Of a stretch of 64,000 bases of DNA, positions 6,095-46,700 are shown one piece after another. Below the pieces are notes generated by a model. That model was not told the DNA's origin. It saw nothing but the letters and a program-made list of their open reading frames with translations, and did no database searches. The stretch comes from Natronorubrum thiooxidans (GTDB lineage: Archaea; Halobacteriota; Halobacteria; Halobacteriales; Natrialbaceae): assembly GCF_900156475.1 (NCBI RefSeq), contig NZ_FTNR01000005.1:62001-126000 (forward strand). Direction: 5' to 3'. The translations under genes and the position numbers were made by a program. Positions within the stretch are counted from its first letter, which is position 1, and each line of letters starts with the position of its first letter.

Positions 6095-6153
6095 GTCGTC
6101 TTGACACACAGGACACGAACTTAACAGGTTCGAGTGGCGTGTCCACACGGACC

Positions 6154-6166
6154 GCAACGTTTTTGC
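6154..6166 (+). promoter_or_regulatory. Candidate promoter of the pheS leader transcript
   Basis: GCAACGTTTTTGC at 6154-6166: a weak, T-rich TATA-like element centred near 6161. A start 26-27 bases downstream would fall around 6187, just before the leader ATG at 6190. The match to consensus is poor, so this rests mainly on spacing. Confidence 0.35.
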
Positions 6167-6189: not shown

Positions 6190-6276
6190 ATGGCACCCGA
6201 ATCCCACGTCAGTGCCGGTATCGACGACCAGTCAGACCGTCCACAGTCGGGATTCGGTTTCTTTTTCGCCCGGTGA
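6190..6276 (+). CDS. Putative Phe-rich leader peptide of pheST
   Basis: A 28-codon open frame, ATG at 6190 and TGA at 6274-6276, ending SGFGFFFAR. Four of the last seven codons are Phe (TTC, TTC, TTT, TTC at 6253-6267), against a few percent Phe in haloarchaeal proteins. It lies 137 bases upstream of pheS on the same strand. Bacterial pheST and pheA leaders use the same device: ribosomes slow at Phe codons when charged tRNA-Phe is scarce. The stop codon sits inside the loop of a perfect 6-bp hairpin (6268-6283), and an 11-bp hairpin follows (6293-6319). Seen: frame, codons, hairpins. Inferred: translation and a regulatory role. Conservation across Halobacteria would decide it. Confidence 0.6.
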   Translation: MAPESHVSAGIDDQSDRPQSGFGFFFAR

Positions 6277-6319
6277 TCCGGGCCGGTGGAGCCGCGCTCG
6301 CCCACGCCGGGCGGGCGCG
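6267..6319 (+). promoter_or_regulatory. Attenuator-like alternative hairpins in the pheS leader
   Basis: Segment A, CGCCCGG (6267-6273), overlaps the end of the leader peptide. Its GCCCGG (6268-6273) pairs with CCGGGC (6278-6283) around a TGAT loop. Segments C (6293-6303) and D (6309-6319) form an 11-bp stem with one G-U pair and a 5-base loop. A can also pair over 7 bp with 6307-6313, which would destroy C:D. A smaller hairpin, 6286-6292 with 6300-6305 (six pairs, one bulged A), also competes with C:D. No T-run follows 6319, so this is not a standard archaeal intrinsic terminator. A role through pausing, coupled translation or mRNA access is inference. Confidence 0.5.
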
Positions 6320-6413
6320 TCGAAACCGACCGCGCCGTCGACAGCGCTCGAGGCCAGACTCGAGCCGAGTCGGAACCGCTAACTGACCCCCACGCAGCCA
6401 TACGAACAAGCGA

Positions 6414-7940
6414 ATGCAACTTCCAGCACAACAGGTCGCGGTCTTGGAGGCCGCAAGCGCGGACGATGCAACGTCCGTCGACGCCCTCGCCGCGGCGACC
6501 GACCTGCCACCGGAGACCGTCACCGGGGCAGTGTTCGAACTCGAGGCCGAGGAACTGGTCGCCGTCACCGAACGCGTCGACGAAACCGTCTCACTCACCG
6601 ACGAAGGTCAGGAATACGTCACCGATGGACTCCCCGAAGTCCGGCTCTACGAGGCCGCACTCGAGGCCGGCGCCGGCGACGAGCCGGTCCAGATGGGCCG
6701 AGTAATCGGGGCCTCGGGACTCGAGGGCCCACAGGTCGACATCGCACTCTCGAACTACGCCCGCAAGGGGTACGGCAGCATCGACAGCGGCGAGATCACG
6801 GCCGATCCCGACGCCGAACCGGATGCGGATGCGGAGGCAAACGCGCTCGCCGAACTCGCCGACGCGGACGACACACCGGTCGAAGACGCCGATGTCGACG
6901 CGGAGACGCTCGAGGAACTCGAGCGACGGGGCTTACTCGATCGCTCGGAGTCGACCGTCCGCGAGGTGACGCTGACGGATGCCGCCGTCACGGAGCTCAT
7001 GGCAGGGCTCGAAACCGCCGAGACGGTCGGCCAGGTCACGCCCGAACTCCTCACGAGCGGGGAGTGGGAGGACGTCGAATTCGCCGAATATAACGTCGAA
7101 GCCGACGCCGAAACCGTCGAAGGCGGAAAAGTTCATATCCTGCGCCAGATGTCCGAACGCGTCAAAGACGTCCTCGTCGGGATGGGCTTTCAGGAGATGG
7201 ACGGTCCCCACGCCGACGCGGACTTCTGGATCAACGACTGTCTGTTCATGCCGCAGGACCATCCCGCGCGAACGCACTGGGATCGGTTCGCCCTAGAGCA
7301 GCCGAGTCACATCGACGAGTTGCCCGAGGACCTCGTCGAGCGCGTCGAACGCGCCCACCGCGAGGGCGTCGGCGAGGACAGCGAAGGCTACCACTCGCCG
7401 TGGGACGAGGACTTCGCCCGCGCGCTCGCGCTTCGGGGCCACACGACCTCGCTGTCGACCCGCTACCTTTCTGGAACCGAAATCGGCGAGATCGAACCGC
7501 CAGCGCGCTTTTTCAGCGTCGAGAAGGCCTACCGGAACGACACGCTCGACGCGACGCACCTGCTCGAGTTCTATCAGATCGAGGGCTGGGTGATGGCCGA
7601 AGACCTCTCGGTGCGCGATCTGATGGGCACGTTCGAGGAGTTCTACGCCCAGTTCGGCATCACCGACATCCAGTTCAAACCCCACTACAACCCCTACACG
7701 GAGCCGTCGTTCGAACTGTTCGGCACCCACCCCACCACGGGCGAACTGATCGAGATCGGTAACTCGGGCATCTTCCGCCAGGAGATGCTCGAGCCACTCG
7801 GCGTCGACTGTGATGTGATGGCCTGGGGGCTCGCCCTCGAGCGACTCGCCATGCTGACCACCGGCGCGGAGGATATCCGCGACCTCCACGGCACGCTCGC
7901 CGACCTCGAGTTCCTGCGGAACGCGGAGGTGACTTACTGA
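6414..7940 (+). CDS. pheS: Phenylalanyl-tRNA synthetase alpha subunit
   Basis: The catalytic subunit of the (alpha-beta)2 class II enzyme that charges tRNA-Phe in the cytoplasm. At 508 residues it is the archaeal/eukaryotic type, with an N-terminal winged-helix region (about 1-90, plus an acidic insert near 125-160) for tRNA binding. The class II core shows motif 2, RFFSVEKAYRNDTLDATH (about 365-382), and motif 3, GLALERLAML (about 472-481). The ATG at 6414 has no Shine-Dalgarno motif and is 137 bases after the leader peptide stop. Its TGA overlaps the pheT ATG by one base (7940), so the two are translationally linked. Confidence 0.97.
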   Translation: MQLPAQQVAVLEAASADDATSVDALAAATDLPPETVTGAVFELEAEELVAVTERVDETVSLTDEGQEYVTDGLPEVRLYEAALEAGAGDEPVQMGRVIGASGLEGPQVDIALSNYARKGYGSIDSGEITADPDAEPDADAEANALAELADADDTPVEDADVDAETLEELERRGLLDRSESTVREVTLTDAAVTELMAGLETAETVGQVTPELLTSGEWEDVEFAEYNVEADAETVEGGKVHILRQMSERVKDVLVGMGFQEMDGPHADADFWINDCLFMPQDHPARTHWDRFALEQPSHIDELPEDLVERVERAHREGVGEDSEGYHSPWDEDFARALALRGHTTSLSTRYLSGTEIGEIEPPARFFSVEKAYRNDTLDATHLLEFYQIEGWVMAEDLSVRDLMGTFEEFYAQFGITDIQFKPHYNPYTEPSFELFGTHPTTGELIEIGNSGIFRQEMLEPLGVDCDVMAWGLALERLAMLTTGAEDIRDLHGTLADLEFLRNAEVTY

Positions 7941-9655
7941 TGCCCACTGTCGATATCGACCCCGACGAACTGCGCGAGTTGACCGGCCACGAGGAGACGA
8001 GCGACGACGACCTCAAAGCGGACCTGTTCGGACTCGGCCTCGAGTTCGAGGGCCGAACCGAAGACGGCGAGTTCGAACTCGAGTTCGCCCCTGACCGCCT
8101 CGACCGGCTCTCGGTCGAAGGCGTCGCGCGCTCGATGCGCTACCAGTACGGCGACGCCCGCGGCGTCCACGTCCCGTCGCCGAATTCGGCGGAGTGGACG
8201 ATCGAGGTCGACGAATCGGTTCCCGACGAGCGGCCGTACGTCACGGGCGCGGTGATCCGCGACGTGAATCTCGACGAGGACGCCCTCGATTCGCTCATCC
8301 AACTGCAGGAGAAACTCCACGCGACGATGGGGCGCAAGCGCGCGAAGGGCGCGATCGGGATTCACGACCTGACGATGCTGAAAGGGCGGTCCGCAACAGA
8401 TGACGGCGCACCCTCGATCGAGTACGTCGGCGTCGACCCCGACGGCGACCACTTCGTCCCGCTCGATTCCGACGAAGAGATGACGCCCGCAGAAGTGCTC
8501 GAGAACCACCAGACGGGCCAGACCTACGCCGACCTCGTCAGCGGCTACGATCGCTACCCTGCGATCTACGACGACCTCGGCCTCTTTTCGTTCCCGCCGG
8601 TGATCAACGGCCGCCGGACCGAGGTGTCGACGGACTCGAGGGACCTGTTCGTCGAGATGACCGGCACCGACCAGTGGACGATCGACAAGATGCTGAACAT
8701 CGTCTGCTATGCGCTGTCGGCACGTGGGGCGACAATCGAGGACGTGACGATTGAGTACCAAGATCACGAGATTGTCCGTCCGGATCTCTCGACAAAGACC
8801 AAGACCGTTTCCCACGCCCGCATCGAGACCATTCTCGGCATCGACCTCGATCCCGACGAAGTGCTCGATCTGGCCGAACGATCGGGGCTCGAGGCGGAAA
8901 AAACCGAGAGCGAGGACGGGGACCTCGTCTACGAGGTGACAATCCCTCCGTATCGCGTCGACGTCCTCCATCCGCTCGACATCATCGACGATCTCGGGCG
9001 CGCCTACGGGTTCAACGAACTCGAGCCGACCTACCCCGACGTTGGGACCGTCGGCGGCCGTCACGAACGCTCGCGACTCGAGCGAGCCGTCCGCACCCAA
9101 CTCGTTGGCCTCGGTTTCGAGGATCTGCTGAACTTCCACATGATCAACGAGGCAGAGAACTACGATCGTCTCGACGTTGCGCCCGGCACGGACGCCTATG
9201 GGGCCGGCGAGCCCGTGACGATCAAAGAGCCCTACAGCGAGGATTACACCATGCTCCGGACCTGGGTCATGCCCTCGCTCATGACGGTCCTCGAGCGAAA
9301 CACCCACCGCTCGTATCCACAGCATCTCTCCGAGATCGGGTTCCGCGCGGCGCTCGACGACAGCGAAAACACCGGCGTCGGCGAGAGTCGTCACGTCGGG
9401 GCCGTCCTCGCGAGCCACGACGCGGGCTACGAAGACGCCAAAGCGCGCCTGCAGGCGCTCGCGCGCAACTTCGACGTCGACCTCGAGACGCCTCCGACCG
9501 ACCACCCGGCCTTCATTTCGGGTCGAACCGCCGCGGTCGTCCTCGACGGCGAAGACGTCGGTGTGATCGGCGAGGTCCATCCGACGGTGCTCATCGAGTA
9601 CGACCTCGAGGTGCCCGTCGCAGCGTTCGAGTTCGATCTGGCGGCGCTGCAGTAA
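7940..9655 (+). CDS. pheT: Phenylalanyl-tRNA synthetase beta subunit
   Basis: The non-catalytic partner of PheS. It recognises tRNA and carries the B3/B4 editing region that clears mischarged Tyr-tRNA-Phe. The 571-residue length is typical of the archaeal form, much shorter than the roughly 800-residue bacterial form, which has added N-terminal and C-terminal anticodon-binding domains. The B5 domain region includes 'YRVDVLHPLDIIDDLGRAYG' (about 336-355), and the B3/B4 region lies around 90-240. It is co-transcribed with pheS (ATG overlaps the pheS stop). A 264-base gap to a convergent gene follows. Confidence 0.97.
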   Translation: MPTVDIDPDELRELTGHEETSDDDLKADLFGLGLEFEGRTEDGEFELEFAPDRLDRLSVEGVARSMRYQYGDARGVHVPSPNSAEWTIEVDESVPDERPYVTGAVIRDVNLDEDALDSLIQLQEKLHATMGRKRAKGAIGIHDLTMLKGRSATDDGAPSIEYVGVDPDGDHFVPLDSDEEMTPAEVLENHQTGQTYADLVSGYDRYPAIYDDLGLFSFPPVINGRRTEVSTDSRDLFVEMTGTDQWTIDKMLNIVCYALSARGATIEDVTIEYQDHEIVRPDLSTKTKTVSHARIETILGIDLDPDEVLDLAERSGLEAEKTESEDGDLVYEVTIPPYRVDVLHPLDIIDDLGRAYGFNELEPTYPDVGTVGGRHERSRLERAVRTQLVGLGFEDLLNFHMINEAENYDRLDVAPGTDAYGAGEPVTIKEPYSEDYTMLRTWVMPSLMTVLERNTHRSYPQHLSEIGFRAALDDSENTGVGESRHVGAVLASHDAGYEDAKARLQALARNFDVDLETPPTDHPAFISGRTAAVVLDGEDVGVIGEVHPTVLIEYDLEVPVAAFEFDLAALQ

Positions 9656-45887: not shown

Positions 45888-46700
45888 CTACCCGACGACG
45901 TGTTCGGTGTCGTACGAACCCAGCCGACGGACCCACCCCTTCTCTGCCAGCTTCTCGAGATCCTCGATCGCTTCTTTCGTCCGCGCCTCGTAGAGGCCGG
46001 CCTCGATGTCGATGTGGAAGACGTAGTCGCCCAGTCGCTGGCCGCTGGGACGGGATTCGACCCGCGTCAGGTTGATGTCGCGGTCGGCAAAGGGCTCGAG
46101 CAGTTCGAGCAACAGGCCAGGATAGTTCGCGTTCGGGTAGACGACGAGCGTGGATTTGCCCCCGCCTTTCGAGCGCTCTTCAGCGGGTGCAAGCGCGAAG
46201 AATCGCGTCGCGTTCGAGTCCTGGTCCTGAATGTCCTCAGCAAGCACTTCGATGCCGTTGCTGGCGTTGTCGGGGTGGCCGATACCTGCGACGGACGGAT
46301 CTTCGCGGGCGAACTCGACACCCTGTGCCGTGCTCGCGACAGCCTCGAGCGTGGCGTCGGGATACTCGCGGTCGAGATAGGAGCGACACTGCGCTAGCGC
46401 CTGAGAGTGGCTGGCGATCGTGTCGAACTCCGGCCCCTGGGCGAGCAGGGCGTGTCGAATCGGCGTGACGATCTCGCGGACGACGGCGACGTCGTACTCC
46501 GCGAGCGCATCGAGGCTCTCCGTGACGCTGCCTTCGATGCTGTTTTCGATCGGAATGACACCGCGGTCGTGTTCGCCACGGGCAACGGCGTCGACGATTG
46601 CCGTGACCGACTGGCGGAAGTCGATCTCGTCGCCGTCGGCGATCGCCGTGGCTGCCCGGTGTGAGTACGTTCCTTCAGGACCAAGCGTAACTGCAGTCAT
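45888..46700 (-). CDS. pheA: Prephenate dehydratase
   Basis: A 270-residue enzyme converting prephenate to phenylpyruvate, the committed step to phenylalanine. The catalytic domain (about 1-180) starts 'VTLGPEGTYSHRAA' and includes the catalytic 'NATRFFALA' (TRF motif). The ACT domain follows (about 190-270) with the phenylalanine-binding ESRPSGQ and a G-L/L-L-L-type region, so feedback inhibition by Phe is expected. There is no fused chorismate mutase. A TATA-like TCTTTTGA (about 46727-46734, minus strand) predicts a near-leaderless transcript; no Phe-rich leader precedes it. Confidence 0.96.
   Translation of the reverse strand: MTAVTLGPEGTYSHRAATAIADGDEIDFRQSVTAIVDAVARGEHDRGVIPIENSIEGSVTESLDALAEYDVAVVREIVTPIRHALLAQGPEFDTIASHSQALAQCRSYLDREYPDATLEAVASTAQGVEFAREDPSVAGIGHPDNASNGIEVLAEDIQDQDSNATRFFALAPAEERSKGGGKSTLVVYPNANYPGLLLELLEPFADRDINLTRVESRPSGQRLGDYVFHIDIEAGLYEARTKEAIEDLEKLAEKGWVRRLGSYDTEHVVG

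Follow-up and report, generated by a model that had tools for sequence, protein, structure and literature searches.

A Phe-codon leader frame with conserved RNA structures before pheST in Halobacteria: a candidate archaeal sensor of charged tRNA-Phe

The leader frame at pheST and its conservation

The window, i.e., the whole 64,000-nt stretch of DNA analyzed, comes from a genome of Natrialbaceae and carries pheS and pheT, which overlap by one base. The PheS sequence showed 97% identity to the nearest relatives, which were Natronorubrum species. A short frame ending in clustered Phe codons precedes the two genes, and the features of the locus, apart from the RNA structures, are as follows.

6153..6164, + strand: BRE/TATA-like promoter element CGCAACGTTTTT of the predicted leader transcript, conserved at the same distance
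6190..6276, + strand: leader ORF MAPESHVSAGIDDQSDRPQSGFGFFFAR, 28 codons, probably leaderless; an ORF of matching size is listed for H. volcanii in a published source
6253..6267, + strand: putative regulatory Phe codons, TTC, then TTC TTT TTC
6371..6386, + strand: putative pheS-proximal promoter-like (BRE/TATA-like) element CGGAACCGCTAACTGA, 34 nt before the pheS ATG
6414..7940, + strand: pheS, phenylalanyl-tRNA synthetase alpha subunit, putative regulated gene (PF01409, E 1e-79)
7940..9655, + strand: pheT, beta subunit, from the ORF list (weaker PF01409 match, 1.3e-4)

The frame had been described in a first-pass annotation as 28 codons at 6190-6276 (+) with a C-terminal SGFGFFFAR, four Phe among the last seven residues and a gap of 137 nt to the pheS ATG at 6414, and all of these details were exact on re-checking. 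The same annotation had stated that pheA (46185-46688, minus strand) lacks such a leader, and no Phe-rich frame was found upstream of that gene. The codon pattern GGN-TTY-GGN-TTY-TTY-TTY occurred once in the whole 4.2-Mb genome.

A locus was counted as having a Phe leader when an ATG ORF of 12-70 aa with at least three Phe in its last 12 residues was present no more than 450 nt upstream. Among the 50 large ORFs of the window, pheS was the sole gene that passed this rule. Relatives were taken from two collections, which overlap. Conservation of the frame in relatives had been predicted, and it was found at 68/81 halobacterial pheS loci (GTDB Halobacteria set) and at 23/34 loci of the second, partly overlapping halobacterial set. 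The orthologous frames end in GFGFFF(A/R) and were present in all 15 Haloferax genomes tested. None of the 26 non-halobacterial Halobacteriota pheS loci and none of the 405 dinucleotide-shuffled upstream regions passed the rule. The Phe-leader observation was correct and well beyond chance. Approximately 16% of the sampled loci had no recognizable Phe-rich frame. At two loci, L130 and L135, no more than 36-38 nt separate the leader stop from pheS, which leaves too little space for the usual hairpin described below; these leaders possibly represent a minimal form of the system. As a separate observation, trpS lies directly upstream of pheST in three genomes (G103, G106, and G407) and on a different contig in the window genome; the trpS-pheST order may be ancestral.

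Strong coding constraint acts on the Phe block. Its pN/pS was 0.12 in 81 distinct aligned blocks, which agrees with the predicted excess of synonymous over nonsynonymous change. In the same blocks, all four wobble bases occurred in the second Gly codon, and variation within the Phe codons was mostly at the wobble base. T was present at Phe codon positions 1-2 in 469/504 cases and at position 3 in 68/252, where a pyrimidine was found in 249/252; the difference between positions 1-2 and 3 gave a Fisher p of ~3e-80, although the counts are not phylogenetically independent. Moreover, the distance from the ATG to the Gly codon took 11 distinct values, every one a multiple of 3. This codon-position pattern, together with frame retention, is unexplained by a pyrimidine tract alone. 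Outside the Phe block, the middle of the leader varied in sequence and length (24-48 aa in total). At the N-terminus (MAPES/MASEP), pN was larger than pS because nucleotides rather than amino acids are kept there, with the consensus ATG GCA YCC GAA YCC CAC.

Nearly all leader-bearing loci carried the element C[GA]NAACG[TC]TTTT at a constant distance. The TATA-like element of the window had been called poor and correctly spaced; its spacing was confirmed, whereas "poor" understates a BRE/TATA-like element that is conserved throughout the order. The T-tract of CGCAACGTTTTT precedes the leader ATG by ~28 nt, a spacing that predicts a leaderless start at 6190. The earlier suggestion that the transcript starts at the leader ATG was therefore retained, with 6190 rather than ~6187 as the expected position. 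A second, AAnnGnTAA[AC]-type element was found close to pheS in 111/144 loci, including loci without a leader. Judged from the sequence, it may be a separate pheS promoter giving basal expression.

Published H. volcanii data bear on these expectations. In the part of the dRNA-Seq report considered here (Babski et al. 2016, PMC4983044), Table 2 lists a 26-aa ORF of 2772 Da and pI 5.9 in the 5'-UTR of pheS (HVO_2948), the 5'-UTR falls in the 150-250 nt class, and no second start site for pheS is given. The Haloferax leaders found here have 26 aa, ~2.8 kDa and a pI of 5.9, and lie 212 nt upstream of pheS. The Haloferax leader matches the listed ORF in size and position, with mass and pI close, not identical.

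Two RNA structures in the leader region

The case for a regulatory element is best supported by two RNA structures, both absent from the first-pass annotation. They comprise the following parts.

6197..6205, + strand: RNA strand A CCGAAUCCC, near the mRNA 5' end, pairing with strand B
6249..6257, + strand: RNA strand B GGGAUUCGG, overlapping the Gly-Phe-Gly codons
6281..6331, + strand: P1/P2 hairpin, supported by covariation
6281-6287 with 6325-6331, + strand: P1 stem
6288-6290 (GGA) and 6322-6324 (GAA), + strand: internal loop
6292-6300 with 6312-6320, + strand: P2 stem

In the A:B helix, leader nt 8-16 pair with GGRUUCGG of the first Gly-Phe-Gly codons. Pairing was possible for nt 9-15 in 82-84 of 84 leaders and for nt 8 and 16 in 77-78. 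Position 13 with B+2 was U-A in 50, C-G in 24, and U-G in 10 of the 84 leaders; position 14 changed from C-G to G-C in three leaders, and position 16 was flipped in five. The helix predicted from these alignments is supported by the compensatory changes U-A/C-G and C-G/G-C. Duplexes formed with the leader's own partner strand were also more stable than those with a swapped partner (-17.2 vs -14.8 kcal/mol), with the own partner being better in 79/84.

The hairpin starts 4-17 nt past the leader stop, mostly 7-13 nt. Its covariation was 0.344, compared with 0.142 for shuffled alignments and at most 0.143 when the hairpin was slid. P2 showed changes on both sides in eight of its nine pairs in a 40-sequence alignment, and its arms gave -18.1 kcal/mol for the own and -10.9 kcal/mol for swapped partners. 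In P1, the CGG/CCG pairs are nearly fixed, and across the 84 leaders the GGA/GAA loop is invariant or nearly so, with GA/GA/AG in 81-84. Three consecutive G-A pairs are possible in the loop. A kink-turn was considered and is not claimed; the GGA/GAA sequences provide the consecutive G-A pairs, and the 3-nt bulge is missing. A GCCCGG/CCGGGC hairpin across the stop codon was seen by eye in Natrialbaceae only and was not used.

Of 117 genomes from the order, 77 had a match to a covariance model combining the Phe block and the hairpin. Strong matches occurred once per genome and lay at pheS wherever the position of pheS was known, and no match was obtained in 26 non-halobacterial pheS regions. Six loci (L051, L052, L056, L058, L075, and L081) failed the Phe-ORF rule, yet matched the RNA model. 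In the Rfam search, no family matched; the best E-values were 0.45 and 0.95, far under the gathering score.

Proposed mechanism and rival explanations

These data support the interpretation put forward in the first-pass annotation, namely that the leader senses charged tRNA-Phe, and from the sequence we infer regulation. As a whole, the reading of the leader as a cis-acting sensor of charged tRNA-Phe that controls pheST is considered quite probable. RNA polymerase would initiate at the leader ATG. A ribosome loaded on the leaderless 5' end would then arrive at the Phe codons during ongoing transcription. If Phe-tRNA^Phe were scarce, the ribosome would stall at the Phe codons and cover strand B, so that the A:B helix could not form while the downstream P1/P2 hairpin could. 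With plentiful Phe-tRNA^Phe, the ribosome would stand at the stop codon, where its front edge would mask P1 on the 5' side, and A:B would be able to close behind it. The direction of the response would be that the starved configuration leads to transcription into pheST and the fed configuration does not.

Ribosome-masked folding of the 84 leaders was consistent with this scheme. The median values were 0.94 for A:B and 0.00 for P1 with the ribosome at the stop codon, compared with 0.00 and 0.46 with the ribosome on the first Phe codon; these figures partly follow from geometry, and tandem G-A pairs may be scored too low by the energy model. In this model, A:B and P1 report the predicted ribosome position in opposite senses. 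A pairing (B:D) between the Phe codons and a GAAACCG sequence past the hairpin was rejected as a classical antiterminator; its mean probability was 0.05 in free RNA and 0.11 (median 0) when a ribosome was placed at the start, and the partner does not track variation in B.

The longest T-run between the leader stop and pheS was 1-3 nt in all 84 leaders; thus, a bacterial-type intrinsic terminator is absent, a point missing from the first-pass annotation, and the output step differs from that of E. coli and is conjectural. Since no U-run terminator lies between the leader and pheS, regulated early termination by the Rho-like factor FttA/aCPSF1 is proposed. This step alone is advanced tentatively, at somewhat less than an even chance. 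In a review, FttA/aCPSF1 was suggested to compete with ribosomes at RNA polymerase (PMC8116511), and in H. volcanii, RNA polymerase and ribosome proteins co-purify (PMC8576121). The pheS-proximal promoter-like element could bypass the leader.

The main alternative output to factor-dependent termination is control of translation or mRNA stability, in which Phe-tRNA would be sensed in the same manner and the pheST mRNA would be governed through re-initiation, coupling, or nuclease shielding. The absence of a terminator signature would fit such control, as would L130 and L135, whose leaders end so near to pheS; however, the leader-pheS spacing of 100-220 nt in most species is long for coupling, and this variant is regarded as rather unlikely. 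A greater departure is a structured RNA bound by PheRS or another regulator, with the ORF only opening or unwinding the RNA and the Phe codons sensing nothing. The strong covariation of the hairpin is compatible with a bound protein, and P1's CGG/CCG pairs, like the GGA/GAA loop, are less variable than a mere stem would call for. However, the three Phe codons outside A:B are kept as Phe with wobble changes only, which protein binding does not require, making this explanation improbable in our judgment.

The two remaining explanations concern the frame itself. If the ORF encoded a micro-protein with its own function and were merely located before pheS, the separate conserved promoter element would be understandable; however, only the Phe block is kept, with a variable middle and an N-terminus kept as nucleotides, and the frame stays linked to pheS throughout the class. 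Such a micro-protein is considered very improbable. Even less credence is given to an incidental ORF whose Phe codons simply result from a U/C-rich RNA tract, e.g., an FttA or terminator site. T5-6 occurs within the Phe block in 37/84 leaders vs at most T3 downstream up to pheS, as such a tract would have it, whereas T is needed at codon positions 1-2 and not 3, the second Gly codon is free at its wobble base, and the frame from the ATG is held through all length changes.

Relation to known attenuators and a Trp-rich leader at trpS

In bacterial pheST and trp-type ribosome-mediated transcription attenuators (Yanofsky; E. coli pheST leader), a short ORF rich in cognate codons is read before the regulated genes. 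The haloarchaeal leader resembles them in having a short cognate-codon ORF before synthetase genes, in the predicted presence of leader and gene on the same transcript, and in RNA structures that, by masked folding, would depend on ribosome position. Unlike them, it is archaeal with a leaderless start, its Phe codons are themselves part of a helix, as the strand that pairs with the mRNA 5' end, its hairpin past the stop codon carries a GGA/GAA loop, and no base-exchange between the two structures is supported. As a U-run terminator is absent before pheS, it was not classed as a classical hairpin-terminator attenuator. In T-box riboswitches, the leader RNA binds tRNA directly and needs no ORF. 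The mechanism proposed here shares with T-boxes that tRNA charging is sensed within the leader of a synthetase gene; unlike them, the haloarchaeal leader has an ORF and matched no Rfam family.

The Phe element had been described as specific to pheST, which held for that element in the covariance-model search. However, a different, Trp-rich leader precedes the accessory trpS in related genomes. Most of 32 haloarchaeal accessory trpS loci have a short upstream ORF with WRW or WRWW, and many have a TATA-like element at a leaderless distance. One such Trp-rich, apparently leaderless ORF lies at L207:1120-1191, and others occur in L269-L298, e.g., MVSTSHANCWRWHASWEVDSGAV; a pyrimidine-rich GCTCACTCGCTTTCTC tract recurs downstream of the Trp-rich leader. 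In most of 24 folded leader mRNAs, the Trp codons were predicted to be enclosed by a hairpin. The sequence of its 3' arm is kept in L274 and L276 even though the ORF has already stopped; therefore, that arm is an RNA element. In Streptomyces, an attenuator with a Trp-codon leader precedes the accessory TrpRS gene trpRS1. The haloarchaeal trpS leader is similar in placing Trp codons before an accessory TrpRS, a likeness by description rather than by sequence to a bacterial system.

Table 2 of the H. volcanii report also lists a 23-aa ORF before a tryptophan--tRNA ligase (PMC4983044), and the haloarchaeal trpS leaders match it in length and place. In the part of that report considered, rows 12 and 13 thus correspond in length and place to the trpS and pheS leaders, and such ORFs are listed only as small proteins, with neither sequence, codon bias, conservation, nor RNA structure discussed. 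No description of an archaeal leader-peptide attenuator was found in the open-access literature searched, and reviews of archaeal transcription-translation coupling mentioned none or cited bacterial attenuation alone.

Accordingly, the pheST leader looks like one of a class with the trpS leader, archaeal and undescribed. It appears to work like a bacterial leader-peptide attenuator minus the defining terminator, in a domain for which the open-access literature searched gave no described case. We give about an even chance to the broader proposal that a separate class of ribosome-sensing attenuators evolved within Halobacteria and includes at least those of pheST and accessory trpS. In this class, leaderless mini-ORFs would be combined with mRNA folded around or onto the sensing codons, and archaeal factor-dependent termination would replace the hairpin and U-run. 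If true, amino-acid attenuation would be described here for the first time in Archaea. The pheST leader, if confirmed, would represent bacterial-style regulatory logic built from archaeal parts, provide direct genetic evidence of functional transcription-translation coupling in an archaeon, and serve as a natural reporter for ribosome protection of nascent RNA from FttA/aCPSF1.

Among PF00579, PF00133, and PF00587 synthetases in close relatives, no convincing cognate-codon leader was found except that of the accessory trpS. As a minor observation, L240, L241, L244, and L245 share an identical 13-aa ORF, MVGVRFTGAFARF, ~100-150 nt before the start predicted for a PF00587 synthetase that begins with MSESD... 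and is probably thrS. This ORF is not Thr-rich, and a TATA-like element lies upstream of it in three of the four genomes.
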